In this document: positions 41,258 to 54,927 of the stretch, one piece after another | How the letters are laid out: each line of letters begins with the position of its first letter | Numbering within the stretch: the stretch's first letter is position 1 | Origin: a bacterium | GTDB taxonomy: Bacteria; Joyebacterota; Joyebacteria; Joyebacterales; Joyebacteraceae | Assembly (NCBI GenBank): GCA_025774935.1 | Contig: JALGZK010000010.1 | Span: 31,817 to 95,816, forward strand | Reading direction: 5' to 3' | Length of the DNA stretch: 64,000 nucleotides | The notes under the pieces: model-generated | Databases searched by the model: none | Told to the model about the DNA's origin: nothing | Seen by the model: only the letters and a program-made list of their open reading frames with translations | Program-made: the position numbers and the translations under genes

Positions 41258-42325
41258 CTAGAGCGCGTCGTGCGCCTCGAAGAACGCGCGAACCCTCGGG
41301 TTCACGAGCAGCGGCTCGAAGTTCTGGTGTCCGAGGTCGGGGTAGTTGTTCCCCTCGATCACGGTGAAGCCCTTCTCGGTGATCACGACGTCCCAGCCCA
41401 CGTACGGGATGTACGCCATCTCGCGGCACACCTCCAGGAGCTTCGACTTGAGGTACTCCCAGTGAGGGAGCTTGGTTCCGGTGATCGGAACCCCGGTGTC
41501 GGGATGGACTGGGGCCGGCTCGAGGTTCCGCTGCATGTGCCCGGCATACGCCGGCCCGAGGGTCCCCGTGTCGAGGTGGACGAAGCAGGCGATGCCCCCC
41601 TGAGAGCAGTTGTCGACGGGGACGCTCGAAGGCCTCCCGAACCGGTGGCCCGCGAACGGGATGAACGGCTCGTCCGCCTCGTAGTCCCACATCGTGAGGA
41701 CGCGGATCGAGTTCGTCGAGTGAGGGAAGATCCTGGAGGAATACTCGTGCTGATGCACGAACTCGAGGATCACCGCCTCCTCGAGGCGTCCGAGGATCGA
41801 GAGCACGTCATCCTCGCCGGCCTCGCTCCAGTCGAGCAGGAGCTTCCCGTCCCGAACCGTGAGGACGTGCACGGACACGCCGCTCCCTCCCCCGTACGGC
41901 TTGATCACGAACTCGCCGCCGGCCCGGCAGGCATCGATGACGTCCGCGGGCGACCACATCGTGTAGCGGTCGCCGATCTGAACGAACTCCCCTCGCGAGA
42001 CGATGCAGAAGTAGTCCGGCACTTCGCACCCGTAGCTCCTCACGAGCCGCGAGAAGACGAGCTTGTTGTTGAGCGCCTCGCCGAACCGGCCGTTGATCCT
42101 CGGGGTCTTCACGTAGCGCGCGTAGTCGGAGACGTACTCGCGGTGGTCGTTGCCGGGAAGGCCGTAGCGGATCGACGAGAACCCGGTGTTCCCGTGGCGC
42201 CACGCCCGAAGCCTCGTCCCGAGCGAGATCGGGAAGGGCGTCCCGACCTCGCGCTGGATGAGCCGCTGGATGTTCCTGGCGGTGCGTCCGGCCTCGAGCA
42301 TGCGTTCGGAAAAGCCACGAGCCAT
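41258..42325 (-). CDS. ATP-grasp protein, sugar-transfer-associated type (copy 3 in transcript order)
   Basis: This 355-residue protein belongs to the ATPgrasp_ST-like group: NGRFGEALNNKLVFSRL, glycine loop FVIKPYGGGSGVSVHV near residue 140, ILEFVHQHEYSSRIFPHSTN, SIRVLTMWDYE, GGIACFVHLDTGTLG, HPDTGVPITGTKLPHWE and the metal end GWDVVITEKGFTVIEGNNYP. It is a close paralog of the gene upstream and a more distant one of the third. Start ATG 42325 aligns with the sisters' MxxxFxxR start. Substrate unknown; ATP-dependent carboxylate-amine or peptide-type ligation is the fold's chemistry. Confidence 0.85.
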   Translation of the reverse strand: MARGFSERMLEAGRTARNIQRLIQREVGTPFPISLGTRLRAWRHGNTGFSSIRYGLPGNDHREYVSDYARYVKTPRINGRFGEALNNKLVFSRLVRSYGCEVPDYFCIVSRGEFVQIGDRYTMWSPADVIDACRAGGEFVIKPYGGGSGVSVHVLTVRDGKLLLDWSEAGEDDVLSILGRLEEAVILEFVHQHEYSSRIFPHSTNSIRVLTMWDYEADEPFIPFAGHRFGRPSSVPVDNCSQGGIACFVHLDTGTLGPAYAGHMQRNLEPAPVHPDTGVPITGTKLPHWEYLKSKLLEVCREMAYIPYVGWDVVITEKGFTVIEGNNYPDLGHQNFEPLLVNPRVRAFFEAHDAL

Positions 42326-42355
42326 CGGTCGTGTCTCCGTCGTTCAGCGCACGGA

Positions 42356-43420
42356 TCAGAGGATCCCGTGCGCCTCGTAGAACTCCCTGACGCGCGGGAT
42401 GGGCAGGAGCGCCCCGTGCAGCTGGTGAGAGAGATCCGGGTAGTTGTTTCCCTCGATCACGACGAAGCCCTTCTCCGTGATGACGACGTCCCACCCGACG
42501 TACGGGATGTACGCCATCTCCCTGCACACGTGCAGGAGCCTCGACTTCACCGTCTCCCAGTGCGGGAGCGTGACCCCCACGACCTGCTCGCCGGTGTCGG
42601 GGTGGTGAGTGACCTCGAAGACCTGGGGCGTCGTGTGTCCGCCGTGCGCCGTCACGATGACCCCGGTCTCGACATCGATCTTGCAGCTGATCCCGCCGCG
42701 CGAAGCGTTGTCGACGGGAGCGCTGGTGCGGCTCCCGAACCGGTGACCGGAGAACGGGATGAACGGCTCCATCTTCTCGTAGTCCCACATCGTGAGGACG
42801 CGGATGGAGTTCACCGAGTCCGGGAAGATGCGCGACGAGTACTCGTGCTGGTGGACGAACTCGAGGATGACGGCCTCGTCCAGGCTCCGGAGGAGCGACC
42901 GCACGTGGTCTATGTCGGTCTCGCGCCGGTTCAGGAGGAGCTTCCCGCCGTCCGCGGTCAGGACGTGCACCGCGACCCCGCTCCCGCCCCCGTACGGCTT
43001 TATGACGAACTCCCCGCCCGCGAGACATGACTCGATGACCTCGTCGGGCGACCGCATCCGGTACCGATCGCCGATCTGGACGAACCTGCCGTCGGTCACG
43101 AGGCAGTAGTACTCCGGGACGTCGATGCCGTAGCTCCTGACGAGCATCGAGAAGACGACCTTGTTGTTGAGCGCCTCCCCGAAGCGGCCGTTGATCTTCG
43201 GCGTCCTGATGTAGCGCGCGTAGTCGCTCACGAAATCAGTGTAGTTCTCCTCGGTGAGTCCGTACCGGACGAACGAGAACCCGGTGAAGCCTCGGCGCCA
43301 CGCCCAGAACCGGTTCCTGAGCGGCACGCGGAACGGCGCGCGAAGCTCCCTCAGCACCAGCCGCTGGAAGTTGCGGGCCGTCTTTCCTGCCGTGAGCATG
43401 CGGTCGGCAAATCCGGGCAC
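42356..43420 (-). CDS. ATP-grasp protein, sugar-transfer-associated type (copy 2)
   Basis: This 354-residue protein has the same order of motifs as its downstream sister: INGRFGEALNNKVVFSMLV, GEFVIKPYGGGSGVAVHVLT, EFVHQHEYSSRIFPDS, SIRVLTMWDYEKMEPFIPF, and YVGWDVVITEKGFVVIEGNN. I chose GTG 43420 because VPGFADRML aligns with MARGFSERML and MRTDFAGRAL of the paralogs; the open frame extends 22 codons further to a GTG at 43486 beside the previous stop. The gap to copy 3 is 30 bp and to copy 1 67 bp, consistent with one transcript. Confidence 0.84.
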   Translation of the reverse strand: MPGFADRMLTAGKTARNFQRLVLRELRAPFRVPLRNRFWAWRRGFTGFSFVRYGLTEENYTDFVSDYARYIRTPKINGRFGEALNNKVVFSMLVRSYGIDVPEYYCLVTDGRFVQIGDRYRMRSPDEVIESCLAGGEFVIKPYGGGSGVAVHVLTADGGKLLLNRRETDIDHVRSLLRSLDEAVILEFVHQHEYSSRIFPDSVNSIRVLTMWDYEKMEPFIPFSGHRFGSRTSAPVDNASRGGISCKIDVETGVIVTAHGGHTTPQVFEVTHHPDTGEQVVGVTLPHWETVKSRLLHVCREMAYIPYVGWDVVITEKGFVVIEGNNYPDLSHQLHGALLPIPRVREFYEAHGIL

Positions 43421-43487
43421 TCCGGTTCCCTCTCTTCTCCACTCGCGCCGCCCCGCCGCGGTCGGCTCGGACGGCACCTCGAACACC

Positions 43488-44558
43488 TCAGATGACGCGG
43501 TGCGCCTCGTAGAAGCGCCGCACGCGCGGGTCGGTAAGGAACGGGCGGAAGATCTGGAGTCCGTGAACGTCCGTGAAGCTGTTGCCCTCGGTGACCGCGA
43601 ACCCTTCCTCGGTCACGACGACGTCCCACCCGATGTACGGCACGAACGGCAACCGCCTCGCGAGGTCGAGGACGCCGGACTTCATGTACTCCCAGTGCGG
43701 GACCTCGACGCCTTCTATCGCGGCCCCGGTGACTGGATGATGCGAGAGCCACTGCATCGACCCCGAGTGGGGGTACGGCGCTGCCTTGCCGAGGATGCCG
43801 GTCTCGACGTCGACCTCACAGATGTACCCTCCCTGCGTCCAGTTGTCGACGGGAATCGTGGAGTCAGACCCGAAGCGGTGGGCGGCGATCGAGACGAACG
43901 GCACCTCGCGGTCGTAGTCCCACATCGTCTGCACCCGCATTGAGTTCGTCGTGTTCGGGTAGATCTCCGATGCGTAGCGGTGCTGCTGGATGAACTCGCT
44001 GATGACGCCCTCGCCCGTGGAGGTGAGAACGCGCCCCACCTCGTCGCGCGTCGTCTCCTTCTCGTTCATGTAGAGCTTCCCGTCCGTCGCCCGGAGGAGC
44101 CACACCGCGACCCCGCCCCCTCCCCCGTAGGGCTTCAGGACGAGGCGTCCTTCCTTCTCGAGGACGTCGATGACGGAGTCGGCGTCGGTGATGTGATAGA
44201 GGGTGCCGACGGGCACGAACCGCCCGCCGGAGATGACGCAGAAGTACTTCGGCACCTTCGCCCCGAGGCTCGCGAGAAGACGAGAGAAGATGATCTTGTT
44301 GTCGAGGGCCGCTGCGAACCGGCCGTTGATCTTCGGCGTCTGGACGAACCGGACGTAGTCGGAGACGTAGTCCCCGAGGTCCTTCCCCTCGAGACCGTAG
44401 AGGACCCAATCCTGGCTCACGAACCCCCTGCTCCAGAGCCGGAGCTTACTGGCGAACGGGACGCGAATGGAGGAGTGCACCTCCCGCATGACGAGATGAT
44501 GCATCTGTCGGAGCGATTTCCCCCAGGCGAGGGCCCGTCCTGCGAAATCGGTTCGCAT
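43488..44558 (-). CDS. ATP-grasp protein, sugar-transfer-associated type (copy 1, most divergent)
   Basis: This 356-residue protein is the first and most diverged of the triplet: KINGRFAAALDNKIIFSRLL, LVLKPYGGGGGVAVWLL near residue 140, ISEFIQQHRYASEIYPNTTN, SMRVQTMWDYDREVPFV, GGYICEVDVETGILG, HPVTGAAIEGVEVPHWEYM and GWDVVVTEEGFAVTEGNSFTD. The metal-binding end reads EGNS where the others read EGNN. The glycine loop is GGGGG where the others have GGGSG. It follows the methyltransferase gene after a 168-bp gap with a strong hairpin. Confidence 0.85.
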   Translation of the reverse strand: MRTDFAGRALAWGKSLRQMHHLVMREVHSSIRVPFASKLRLWSRGFVSQDWVLYGLEGKDLGDYVSDYVRFVQTPKINGRFAAALDNKIIFSRLLASLGAKVPKYFCVISGGRFVPVGTLYHITDADSVIDVLEKEGRLVLKPYGGGGGVAVWLLRATDGKLYMNEKETTRDEVGRVLTSTGEGVISEFIQQHRYASEIYPNTTNSMRVQTMWDYDREVPFVSIAAHRFGSDSTIPVDNWTQGGYICEVDVETGILGKAAPYPHSGSMQWLSHHPVTGAAIEGVEVPHWEYMKSGVLDLARRLPFVPYIGWDVVVTEEGFAVTEGNSFTDVHGLQIFRPFLTDPRVRRFYEAHRVI

Positions 44559-44726: not shown

Positions 44727-45515
44727 CTATCCCACCTTCGGCGGACCGACCTTCCTGGCAACGTAGTAGATCCACGGGCTGGAGTGGTCGATCTCGTTGC
44801 TGCCGATCGCCGTCCCCTCGAAGTCGTAGATCTCGAGCGTTTCGAACCCGAGGTCCCTGAGCTGCTCGACCTGCTTCCTCTGGTCGATGTAGTAGGTCAC
44901 GAGCGAGAAGTTGTGCGAGCTGTCGTTGATGATCGCGTAGTCCTTCTCCTCGCGCTCGAACTCCCGGTTCGCGCGGCGCCGCGCCACGCGCCTCTGGTGA
45001 CGGACGACCGCGCGGGCGAGCGCGAACGGGTCGAACGAGAACTCGATCTCGGGTTCCTGTCGCGCGTGGTCGCAGTTCCGGTTGTGCGTCGAGAAGACGT
45101 AGAGCCCGCCATCGGCGAGGACGCGGTTGACCTCGCACATGCCGAGGATCCGGTCCTCGTGTCCGAGCGAGTCGAGCCCGTTGTTGGCGAAGAGCACGAA
45201 GTCGTACGAACCGTCCGCGAACTGGTGCATGTCCCTGACGTCGCAGCAGAGGCAGTCGACGTCGGCGAACCTGCGCTTGAGCACCTTCGTCATCTGCTCG
45301 GAGTAGTCGATGCAGCGGTACTCACCCGCCCAGTGCCGGAGGTATTCCGCGGTGCGACCGGCGCCGCATCCGACGTCCAGAACGCGCTTGCCGTAGTGAT
45401 CCTCCTTGTACTTGACGAGGATCATGACTTCGGCGATCTGGAGCGGCATCGTCGTGTAGCGCTCAACGAGGCGCTCGCTCTCGTACGTGCTGCGGTTCAC
45501 GTCATCGTATGCCAT
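44727..45515 (-). CDS. Class I SAM-dependent methyltransferase
   Basis: This 262-residue protein has motif I RVLDVGCGAGRTAEYL near residue 44, post-I CIDYSEQM, motif II-like FVLFANNGLDSLGHED and motif III region LADGGLYVFSTHN. I chose ATG 45515, with GGGAGGGAAGC upstream. The C-terminal third (EREEKDYAIINDSSHNFSLV and FETLEIYDFEG) suggests a small-molecule O- or N-methyltransferase. It lies upstream of the three ATP-grasp genes on the same strand, so it may share a pathway with them; the hairpin between could separate them. Confidence 0.85.
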   Translation of the reverse strand: MAYDDVNRSTYESERLVERYTTMPLQIAEVMILVKYKEDHYGKRVLDVGCGAGRTAEYLRHWAGEYRCIDYSEQMTKVLKRRFADVDCLCCDVRDMHQFADGSYDFVLFANNGLDSLGHEDRILGMCEVNRVLADGGLYVFSTHNRNCDHARQEPEIEFSFDPFALARAVVRHQRRVARRRANREFEREEKDYAIINDSSHNFSLVTYYIDQRKQVEQLRDLGFETLEIYDFEGTAIGSNEIDHSSPWIYYVARKVGPPKVG

Positions 45516-51868: not shown

Positions 51869-53368
51869 GTGAACGATTATACACGAACGCGGCTCCTCGT
51901 CTCTCTCATGTTCGTCGTTGTGGGTTCCATTCCTGGAGCGGCGGAGGCCGGAACTGAGTCGCCGCCGGGAATCGTCATCGACGGGAGGTTCGAGGACTGG
52001 GCCGACGTCCCGGTGGCCCACGCGGACCCCGGGGGCGACGACCTCGGGGGCGGGGTCGACTTCGGCGTCCTCAAGGTCGCGAGCGACGCGGAGCGCGTCT
52101 TCCTCTTCTTCGAGGTCGGGGTCGAGCTCAACCTCCAGCACGACAACGGGATCATCCTCCACGTCGACGCCGACAACTCCCCCGCGACCGGTTTCCCGCT
52201 CCGGGGCCTCGGCGTCGATTTCGAGTGGTGGTTCGGCGACCGCCAGGGCGTGAAGTGGTACCAGGCGACGCGCGTCATCGTCGACCAGGACGATGTGAGC
52301 CTGAGGCAGGGGCCGACAGTCTCCTCGACCGCGTTCGAGATCTCGTTCGACCGGCCGTGGCTCCTGAGCGGTGAGCCGATCCTCCGGAGGAGGAAGATCG
52401 CGCTCCTCCTCCGGAACGGGCACACGGGGATGAACGACACGCTCCCCGACCGCGGGGAGAAGCTCGTCGTCGAGCTCACGGCGGACCCGGCGCCCGAGCC
52501 GTGCCCGGCGAACCTCGTCCGCGAGCGCGCCGACGACATCCGCATCGTCGCGTACAACGTTCTCTTCGACGGGCTCTTCGACCGCGGGGGCAGGTTCATC
52601 CGCATCCTCCGCGCGCTCGACCCCGACGTCATCTGCTTCCAGGAGATCCAGTCTCACACCGACAAGCAGACCGCGGACATGGTCCGGGCGGCGATTCCGG
52701 ACGCGAGGTGGTACGCGAAGGGCGACGACACCAGCGGCGTCACGGTCAGCCGCTACCCGTTCGCCGATTCGCGGATCATCCCTTCCGAGCGGAACCACCT
52801 CTGGACGCTGATCGACCTTCCCGACCGGCGCTACCCGGTCGACCTCTCGATCGTGAACGCGCACCCGCCGTGCTGCTTCCGGGAGGAGGAACGCCAGGAC
52901 GTGCTGGACTCGATCGCGGCGTGGCAGCGCGACCTCATCGAGCCGGGCGAGCCCGAGCTCGAACCGGGAACGCCGATCGTGATCGCGGGCGACCTGAATC
53001 TGGTCGGCGCCGCGCGCCAGGTCGAGACCCTGCTCGCAGGAGCGATCGTGAACGAGGACCTCTACGGTCCGTCGCGAGCGCCAGACTGGGACGGGACGCC
53101 GCTCGTGGACTCGATGCCGTACCACACCACGTGCCGCGAGGCGTACACGTGGCGGGACGAGGACTCGTGGTTCGCGCCGGGCCGGCTCGATTACGTCGTC
53201 TACTCGGACAGCGTGCTCGAGCTCGGGAACCGCTTCGTCCTCTGGACCGAGGACATGTCGGCCGAGGAACTCAGGGCCGCAGGCCTCCGGGCCGACGACG
53301 TGAGAAGGGCCTCCGACCACCTGCCCGTCGTCGCGGACTTCCGCGTGCTCCCCCGCGAGGAGCGGTGA
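51869..53368 (+). CDS. Secreted CBM9/DOMON-like + endonuclease/exonuclease/phosphatase protein (intact copy)
   Basis: This 499-residue protein has a signal peptide (about residues 8-28), a beta-sandwich of the CBM9/DOMON-like type (IDGRFEDWADVPVAHADP, VDFGVLKVASDAERVFLFFE, NGIILHVDADN) to about residue 205, then an EEP domain: AYNVLFDG (Asn230), CFQEI (Glu259), VNAHPP (His332), AGDLNLVG (Asp375, Asn377), GRLDYVVYS and SDHLPV (Asp483, His484). All catalytic positions are present. The start is GTG 51869; MNDYTRTR matches MSDCTRAR of the paralog. It is likely a periplasmic or exported nuclease/phosphatase; the substrate is unknown. Confidence 0.88.
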   Translation: MNDYTRTRLLVSLMFVVVGSIPGAAEAGTESPPGIVIDGRFEDWADVPVAHADPGGDDLGGGVDFGVLKVASDAERVFLFFEVGVELNLQHDNGIILHVDADNSPATGFPLRGLGVDFEWWFGDRQGVKWYQATRVIVDQDDVSLRQGPTVSSTAFEISFDRPWLLSGEPILRRRKIALLLRNGHTGMNDTLPDRGEKLVVELTADPAPEPCPANLVRERADDIRIVAYNVLFDGLFDRGGRFIRILRALDPDVICFQEIQSHTDKQTADMVRAAIPDARWYAKGDDTSGVTVSRYPFADSRIIPSERNHLWTLIDLPDRRYPVDLSIVNAHPPCCFREEERQDVLDSIAAWQRDLIEPGEPELEPGTPIVIAGDLNLVGAARQVETLLAGAIVNEDLYGPSRAPDWDGTPLVDSMPYHTTCREAYTWRDEDSWFAPGRLDYVVYSDSVLELGNRFVLWTEDMSAEELRAAGLRADDVRRASDHLPVVADFRVLPREER

Positions 53369-53502: not shown

Positions 53503-54927
53503 ATGAGCGACTGCACACGAGCGCGCGGGCGGGCGGCTTCACTCCCGATCCTCCTGGCGGCCGCCCTCGCGGCCTCGGGACCGGCGGGCGCGGCCACGCA
53601 CGACGTCATCATAGACGGATCCTTCGCGGACTGGGCGAGCGTCCCGGTCACGTACACCGACCCCACGGGCGACGCCCTCGGCGGCGCCGTCGACTTCGGC
53701 GTCCTCAAGGTCGCGAGCGATCGCGAGCGCGCATACCTCTACTTCGAGATCGGCGCCGAGATGAACCTCCAGAACGACAACGGGATCGTCCTCTACGCGG
53801 ACGTCGACAACGACCCGGCGACGGGTCACGCCGTCGGCGGCATCGGAGCGGAGGTCGAGTGGAGGTTCGGCGAGCGGACGGGGGTCGTGAGGCACGCGGA
53901 GCCCGGGCTCATCGTGAGGCAGGCCGACGTCGGCCTGAGGCAGGGGCCGACCGTCACGTCGACCGTGTTCGAGGTCTCGTTCGACCGCAGGGCGGCGACG
54001 AGCGGCGAGCTCCTCATGGAGGACCGGAACGTCGCGATCCTCCTGCAGAACGAGTCGGGCGGAACGCGCGACACCCTCCCGGACCGAGGGGAGACGCTCG
54101 TGGTCGAACTCTCGGGCGCCGCCCCGGTGGAGCCCTGCCCGACGTTCATGAAGCGCAGGGACGCAGGCGACATCCGGGTCGTAACGTACAACGTCCTCTT
54201 CGACGGGATCTTCAAGAGACACAGCGCCTTCCGGCGCATCCTCAGGGCGATCGACCCCGACATCATCTGCTTCCAGGAGATCTACGAGCACAGCGAGAAG
54301 CAGATCGCCGACCGCCTCTCGACGATGTTCTCCGGCACGACGTGGTACGTCACGTCGAACGGGGACTGCGCGATCGCGAGCAGGTTCCCCGTTCAGAACC
54401 GCGGAGAGGGCAAGGTGGCGAGGGCCGTCTGGGGCTGGGTCGACCTCCCGGACGACCGGTTCGACCGCGACCTCTCGCTCGTCTGCGCGCACCTCCCCTG
54501 CTGCGGAGACAACGAAGGCAGGCAGGACCAGCTGAACGCCATCGTGCGGTGGCACCGGATGATGCGTGAGACGGGCCTCATCACGCCGCGCTGGGGCATG
54601 CCGTTCATGATCGCGGGCGACATGAACCTCGTGGGCTACTCGGAGCAGCTCGATTCGCTCCTGAACGGCTGGATCTCGGACGAGCAGAAGTACGGCGTCT
54701 CCCGCGCGGCCGACTGGGACGACACGGGGTTCGCCGACGCCATGCCCTACCACACGACCTGCCGCGAAGCGTACACCTGGCGCGACGATGCCGAGACGTA
54801 CGCGCCCGGCAGACTCGACTACATCGTCTACACGGACAGCGTGCTCGAGATCAGGAACCACTTCGTCCTGTGGACGCCGGACCTGACGGACGCCGAGCTT
54901 CGGAGCCTGGAAAGGAAGACGCCGTGA
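53503..54927 (+). CDS. Second CBM9-EEP paralog lacking the C-terminal SDH catalytic motif
   Basis: This 474-residue protein aligns residue for residue with the gene upstream through residue ~460: signal peptide, IDGSFADWASVPV sandwich, TYNVLFDG (Asn230), CFQEIYEHSEKQ (Glu259), CAHLPCC, AGDMNLVG and GRLDYIVYTDSVLE. It then ends LTDAELRSLERKTP instead of continuing to the ASDHLPVVADF of copy 1, so the Asp and His of the SDH motif are missing and its hydrolytic function is doubtful. The last 4 bases overlap the start of the beta-barrel gene. Sequence beyond the stop in other frames does not restore SDH. Confidence 0.87.
   Translation: MSDCTRARGRAASLPILLAAALAASGPAGAATHDVIIDGSFADWASVPVTYTDPTGDALGGAVDFGVLKVASDRERAYLYFEIGAEMNLQNDNGIVLYADVDNDPATGHAVGGIGAEVEWRFGERTGVVRHAEPGLIVRQADVGLRQGPTVTSTVFEVSFDRRAATSGELLMEDRNVAILLQNESGGTRDTLPDRGETLVVELSGAAPVEPCPTFMKRRDAGDIRVVTYNVLFDGIFKRHSAFRRILRAIDPDIICFQEIYEHSEKQIADRLSTMFSGTTWYVTSNGDCAIASRFPVQNRGEGKVARAVWGWVDLPDDRFDRDLSLVCAHLPCCGDNEGRQDQLNAIVRWHRMMRETGLITPRWGMPFMIAGDMNLVGYSEQLDSLLNGWISDEQKYGVSRAADWDDTGFADAMPYHTTCREAYTWRDDAETYAPGRLDYIVYTDSVLEIRNHFVLWTPDLTDAELRSLERKTP

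Follow-up and report, generated by a model that had tools for sequence, protein, structure and literature searches.

A lineage-specific tandem expansion of an uncharacterised ATP-grasp family in a little-known bacterium

Three ATP-grasp genes of nearly equal length lie side by side in the window (the whole stretch of DNA analysed here, 64,000 nucleotides), and their arrangement raises the question of whether they are redundant duplicates of one enzyme or ligases that have diverged in substrate. Their coding status, duplication history, conserved residues and neighbours were compared with those of relatives in other genomes.

Organisation and coding evidence

The genes, named A, B and C in reading order, are adjacent and fill positions 44558-41258 (Table 1). 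The first-pass annotation had described three same-strand genes of 355, 354 and 356 codons, and these are found at exactly the positions it gave, on the minus strand. The intergenic gaps, 67 bases between A and B and 30 bases between B and C, fit a single transcript; no promoter-like sites were found across the triplet region with the pattern tested, which may not be that of the host. Inspection of the start context placed a purine-rich stretch upstream of the GTG start of copy B at 43420, and an alternative reading of this gene comprises 376 codons from 43486.

Table 1. Features of the triplet and its flanks, in window coordinates
Feature	Positions	Strand	Description
Class I SAM-dependent methyltransferase	45554 or 45515 to 44727	minus	275 aa; Methyltransf_25 61.6 bits
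MOSC-domain gene remnant	44707-44624	minus	27 codons, between methyltransferase and copy A; aligned with the gene in G002
ATP-grasp copy A	44558-43488	minus	356 aa, first gene of the triplet; glycine loop GGGGG, metal end EGNS; PF14397 118.9 bits
ATP-grasp copy B	43420-42356	minus	354 aa from GTG start; PF14397 143.6 bits
ATP-grasp copy C	42325-41258	minus	355 aa; PF14397 122.5 bits
Prolyl-oligopeptidase-family (S9) peptidase	41097-38608	minus	PF00326 83.5 bits; signal-like N-terminus; directly downstream

All three proteins match PF14397 (ATPgrasp_ST) over nearly the whole profile, with E-values of 3e-34 (A), 9e-42 (B) and 3e-35 (C) and with scores far over the curated cut-off of 31.4 bits, which bears out their earlier description as ATP-grasp proteins of the sugar-transfer-associated family. 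These matches, a strong third-position GC bias in A, B and C, and the existence of same-genus orthologues indicate that each copy is coding. Copies B and C share 66% protein identity, whereas A is 47% identical to B and 46% to C, as expected from the initial view of two close sisters and one diverged copy. Structure prediction from five sequences reached a mean pLDDT of 48 for B and 38 for A, too poor for pocket comparison; in a fold search with the low-confidence B model, the matches listed were only ATP-grasp enzymes, all with E-values above 0.001. No real relative appeared in a sequence search against solved structures, and no relatives of A, B or C were found in the viral contigs and phages searched. 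The scan of genome contigs gave the G002 record as its sole find.

Duplication history and conserved residues

The window genome carries five PF14397 genes: besides the triplet, two more lie in tandem on contig C39. A PF14397 gene is present in nine of 20 genomes of the bacterial family, several with at least two copies or fragments, and absent from the other 11; copy number between genomes ranges from 0 to at least 5. Outside the bacterial family (386 genomes were searched in all), 14 of 15 positive genomes are single-copy, the exception being G240 with two copies in tandem. The phylogenetic tree, rooted at its midpoint and with long outgroup branches, places the members from the bacterial family in one clade (96/99), within which the A clade (99/97) splits from the remainder (98/99) first. 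This early branching of A is likely but not certain. Copies B and C group together at 78/79, a moderate support value, and the one B/C-like gene of G001 branches next to the pair; G001 holds A and this one B/C-like gene, and G000 and G002 hold three genes each.

The most economical history starts from two genes, A and B/C, with B/C later duplicated within the genus. An old duplication would have given rise to copy A and to the ancestor of B and C, the A split pre-dating the genus, and a later duplication of that ancestor within the genus, as the moderately supported B/C node suggests, would have produced B and C. The tree of homologues and the comparison of neighbours across genomes had both been proposed as checks on the locus, together with the caution that the triplet might be a recent duplication of a usually single gene; the old A split and the younger B/C split show copies that are not all recent, and several copies are usual in the bacterial family. 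The triplet is a real, ordinary-looking, lineage-specific tandem expansion of a known, uncharacterised ATP-grasp family.

Orthologues in the same-genus genome G002, the sole other genome with the triplet, are 88% (A), 92% (B) and about 81% (C, N-terminal part) identical to the window copies, and the A orthologue in G001 is 59% identical. Against the G002 orthologues, dN/dS was 0.154 for A, 0.145 for B and 0.242 for the N-terminal part of C, and values of about 0.145-0.24 point to purifying selection; dN/dS is interpreted here for orthologues, paralogue dS being hard to trust in a GC-rich genome. In G002, copy C is broken across two reading frames, either by mutation or through an assembly error; if it is not such an error, the frameshift may be a sign that C is dispensable. 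ATP-grasp copies split between reading frames, which could be assembly errors or decaying copies, are found in G002 (C163 and C194) and in G008 (C120 and C125).

In an alignment of 31 relatives, including haloarchaeal and distant bacterial proteins, residues R207, R227, G229, D237, D311, E323 and N325 (numbering of copy B) do not vary in any row that extends far enough to include them, and R207, R227, D311, E323 and N325 are invariant in the distant rows as well. The lysine before the glycine loop, K141, is invariant across all rows of the bacterial family. By analogy with the ATP-grasp superfamily, K141 is read as the putative ATP-binding lysine and D311, E323 and N325 as a putative metal site; all four are present in A, B and C. 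Disabling mutations at ATP-binding residues, an early concern, were not seen, the family-universal residues being present in all three copies. With these residues kept and the orthologues constrained, the three copies are, on sequence grounds, intact.

The motifs of copy A (Table 1) are replaced in B and C by GGGSG and EGNN, exactly as quoted in the first-pass annotation; across orthologues, only the second of these differences is stable. The metal end reads EGNS in three of three A-type proteins and EGNN in all B/C proteins that cover the site. The glycine loop of A orthologues varies, being GGGSG in G002 and SGGSG in G001, and because the closest A orthologue itself carries GGGSG, the loop was rejected as a mark of an A subtype or of function. 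EGNS is also common elsewhere in the family, and the residue that differs between EGNS and EGNN comes after the conserved E-x-N and is probably not a metal ligand. P328T, combined with an insertion of one residue just beyond the metal end (TDVHGLQ), is a better signature of A, and each of the three A orthologues has both.

Neighbouring genes and relatives elsewhere

The methyltransferase gene does precede the triplet, as had been noticed at the outset, with a gap of 168 bases to copy A; the ATG at 45515 is its more likely start, with a better ribosome-binding stretch than 45554. The suggested tie between this gene and the triplet did not hold. The methyltransferase occurs in 13 of the 20 bacterial-family genomes, eight of them without an ATP-grasp gene, and four of the nine ATP-grasp genomes are without it (Fisher p 0.64 for co-occurrence). 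It adjoins a second methyltransferase and an S9 peptidase in G009, with no ATP-grasp gene between, and in G002 it is separated from copy A by an intact MOSC gene of 152 aa (L039 9499-9957), at the place where the window has the remnant. Another, distantly similar methyltransferase is located directly upstream in G005 and G018, and G011 has it too without an ATP-grasp gene. From this distribution and these arrangements, the methyltransferases go with the site and not with the ATP-grasp genes; a role as functional partner is unsupported, and the window methyltransferase is probably a mere neighbour. A relative of it is directly followed by an asparagine synthase gene in G004 and G006, genomes without the ATP-grasp gene (L126 4040-6806; L124 4168-6839).

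In the window, the triplet has as neighbours the methyltransferase gene and genes for an Smr protein, an AMP-ligase, the S9 peptidase and a DUF4440 protein. Genes for glycans, a precursor peptide or transport were not seen beside it, and the one short frame examined as a precursor-peptide candidate at the locus is the MOSC remnant; a precursor could be encoded elsewhere. The cluster is chromosomal and flanked by conserved genes unrelated to it, so that its surroundings give no clue to its product. The early remark that no known pathway is recognisable here still applies: neither a RiPP precursor nor an Rlo partner nor a glycan cluster was seen next to the triplet. Elsewhere in the window, on the plus strand, two adjacent genes at 51869-53368 and 53503-54927 encode secreted-looking proteins that are 54% identical, another tandem duplication; by eye, these proteins resemble endonuclease/exonuclease/phosphatase enzymes.

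Location in a surface-glycan cluster, a context feature that PF14397 membership does not need, is apparently the basis of "sugar transfer" in the ATPgrasp_ST name, and the triplet is not so located. Members outside the bacterial family are mostly single and several lie in surface-glycan clusters, whereas the window copies are in tandem without glycan genes beside them. Surface-glycan clusters with a PF14397 gene include those of G313 (alongside alanine racemase and an ATP-grasp of TupA type), G107 (with TupA and pyruvyl transferase), Shinella (with a nucleotide sugar dehydrogenase) and Natrononativus (near an O-antigen ligase). The genes of Halomontanus and G270 occur with asparagine-synthase-like and other ATP-grasp genes, and that of G175 occurs with RloA- and RloB-type genes. 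G240 resembles the triplet in having two adjacent PF14397 genes on one strand, but theirs is a glycan cluster of teichoic-acid-like type that includes CDP-glycerol and glycosyltransferase genes. The G240 pair adjoins another ATP-grasp-like gene (L169 5578-9251), and a similar-looking one is found in G270. No paper naming PF14397 was found among open-licence full texts.

Possible functions of the three copies

The best reading of A, B and C is as putative amide-forming ligases with diverged substrates. From the chemistry of the superfamily, each copy would use ATP to turn a carboxylate into an acyl phosphate and would then join it to an amine, giving an amide bond. ATP-grasp enzymes can also form thioesters or phosphorylate, and for this reason amide formation is something we infer. 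Less certainly, and going by the relatives, the ligases would most likely attach amino acids or small amines to an acceptor that is peptide-like or an envelope glycan. RloC may act on an acceptor of this kind, and the TupA-like domain of Campylobacter jejuni Cj1438 is reported to form an amide on glucuronic acid in the capsule (PMC11800379). TupA-like genes neighbour PF14397 genes in G198, G313 and G107 and offer a possible functional model, but they belong to a separate Pfam family (PF14305), unlike the window copies. A and B/C would differ in one of their two substrates, and the three enzymes could act in sequence or in parallel. We put the probability of this explanation, a tandem expansion of PF14397 amide ligases in which A and B/C differ in one substrate, at about 0.5.

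The copies could instead be tandem duplicates that catalyse one and the same reaction and persist by chance or because of a dosage effect. The identity of B and C, which have most motif residues in common, the broken C of G002, and a copy number that varies so widely in a gene that is often absent are all consistent with such redundancy. Copy A fits it poorly, being less than half identical to B or C, separated from them by a split older than the genus and marked by conserved changes of its own; moreover, the A and B orthologues are equally constrained. Redundancy is accordingly a possible account, but a clearly less probable one than divergence in substrate.

Two further explanations bring in the flanking genes. 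In one, the window copies would be graspetide-like RiPP tailoring ligases with the methyltransferase and peptidase as co-workers. Graspetide ATP-grasps are known to have radical SAM and methyltransferase genes nearby (PMC8939145), and in G012 a gene resembling radical SAM/SPASM peptide maturases and one for a small protein of ~106 aa precede a PF14397 member. We consider this improbable: no small precursor gene was seen at the window locus, the methyltransferase recurs in eight genomes without an ATP-grasp gene, A, B and C match PF14397 and not RiPP ATP-grasp models, and the radical SAM cassette stands without an ATP-grasp gene in G011 and G003. The radical SAM gene adjacent to the G012 copy also has relatives without ATP-grasp, and a RiPP pathway was rejected. 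In the other, A, B and C would belong to an Rlo-like envelope system, in which a secreted peptidase, at this locus the S9 enzyme downstream, would process what an RloC-type ligase makes. PF14397 covers RloC-type proteins elsewhere, and A, B and C have weak but consistent similarity (28.8-59 bits) to TIGR02291, the alpha-L-glutamate ligase-like model of RloC in the Pseudomonas rlo operon, but lie far below its cut-off of 314 bits. In Pseudomonas, RloC mutations rescue defects of peptidase mutants, and RloC and a secreted peptidase interact genetically (PMC12239564). Eight of the nine carriers have an S9 peptidase directly after the ATP-grasp genes, but seven of the 11 genomes without these genes have the peptidase as well (Fisher p 0.09), and the partner RloB (PF14402, an inactive transglutaminase with seven helices) was detected in the positive control G175 and in none of the 20 bacterial-family genomes. 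An Rlo-like system is thus a quite unlikely reading of the locus. TupA (PF14305) likewise gave no match in any of the 20 genomes, with its positive control working, and partners of either kind were dropped as candidates.

A cassette shared by three relatives (L041 1017-2630; L131 1073-2754; L132 around 1172-2763) combines a radical SAM/SPASM maturase-like gene with genes for a propeller-like protein and for a protein of ~100 aa whose N-terminus is similar. It is possibly a new peptide-modification cassette; one of the three adjoins an ATP-grasp gene.

More speculatively, the triplet and the distant tandem pair could together form a five-enzyme toolkit, producing a mixed amide-linked chain or an ordered decoration of an exported polymer. 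This is a long shot by comparison with amide ligases that differ in one substrate; if true, it would amount to a modification pathway not recognised before and peculiar to this isolated group of bacteria. The best-studied relatives of PF14397 are envelope-stress and glycan-amide enzymes, and this lineage, in which two to five diverged copies occur and the order of duplication can be traced, offers a natural series for locating the residues behind substrate choice. On its own, the triplet is an ordinary paralogous expansion with a clean duplication series.
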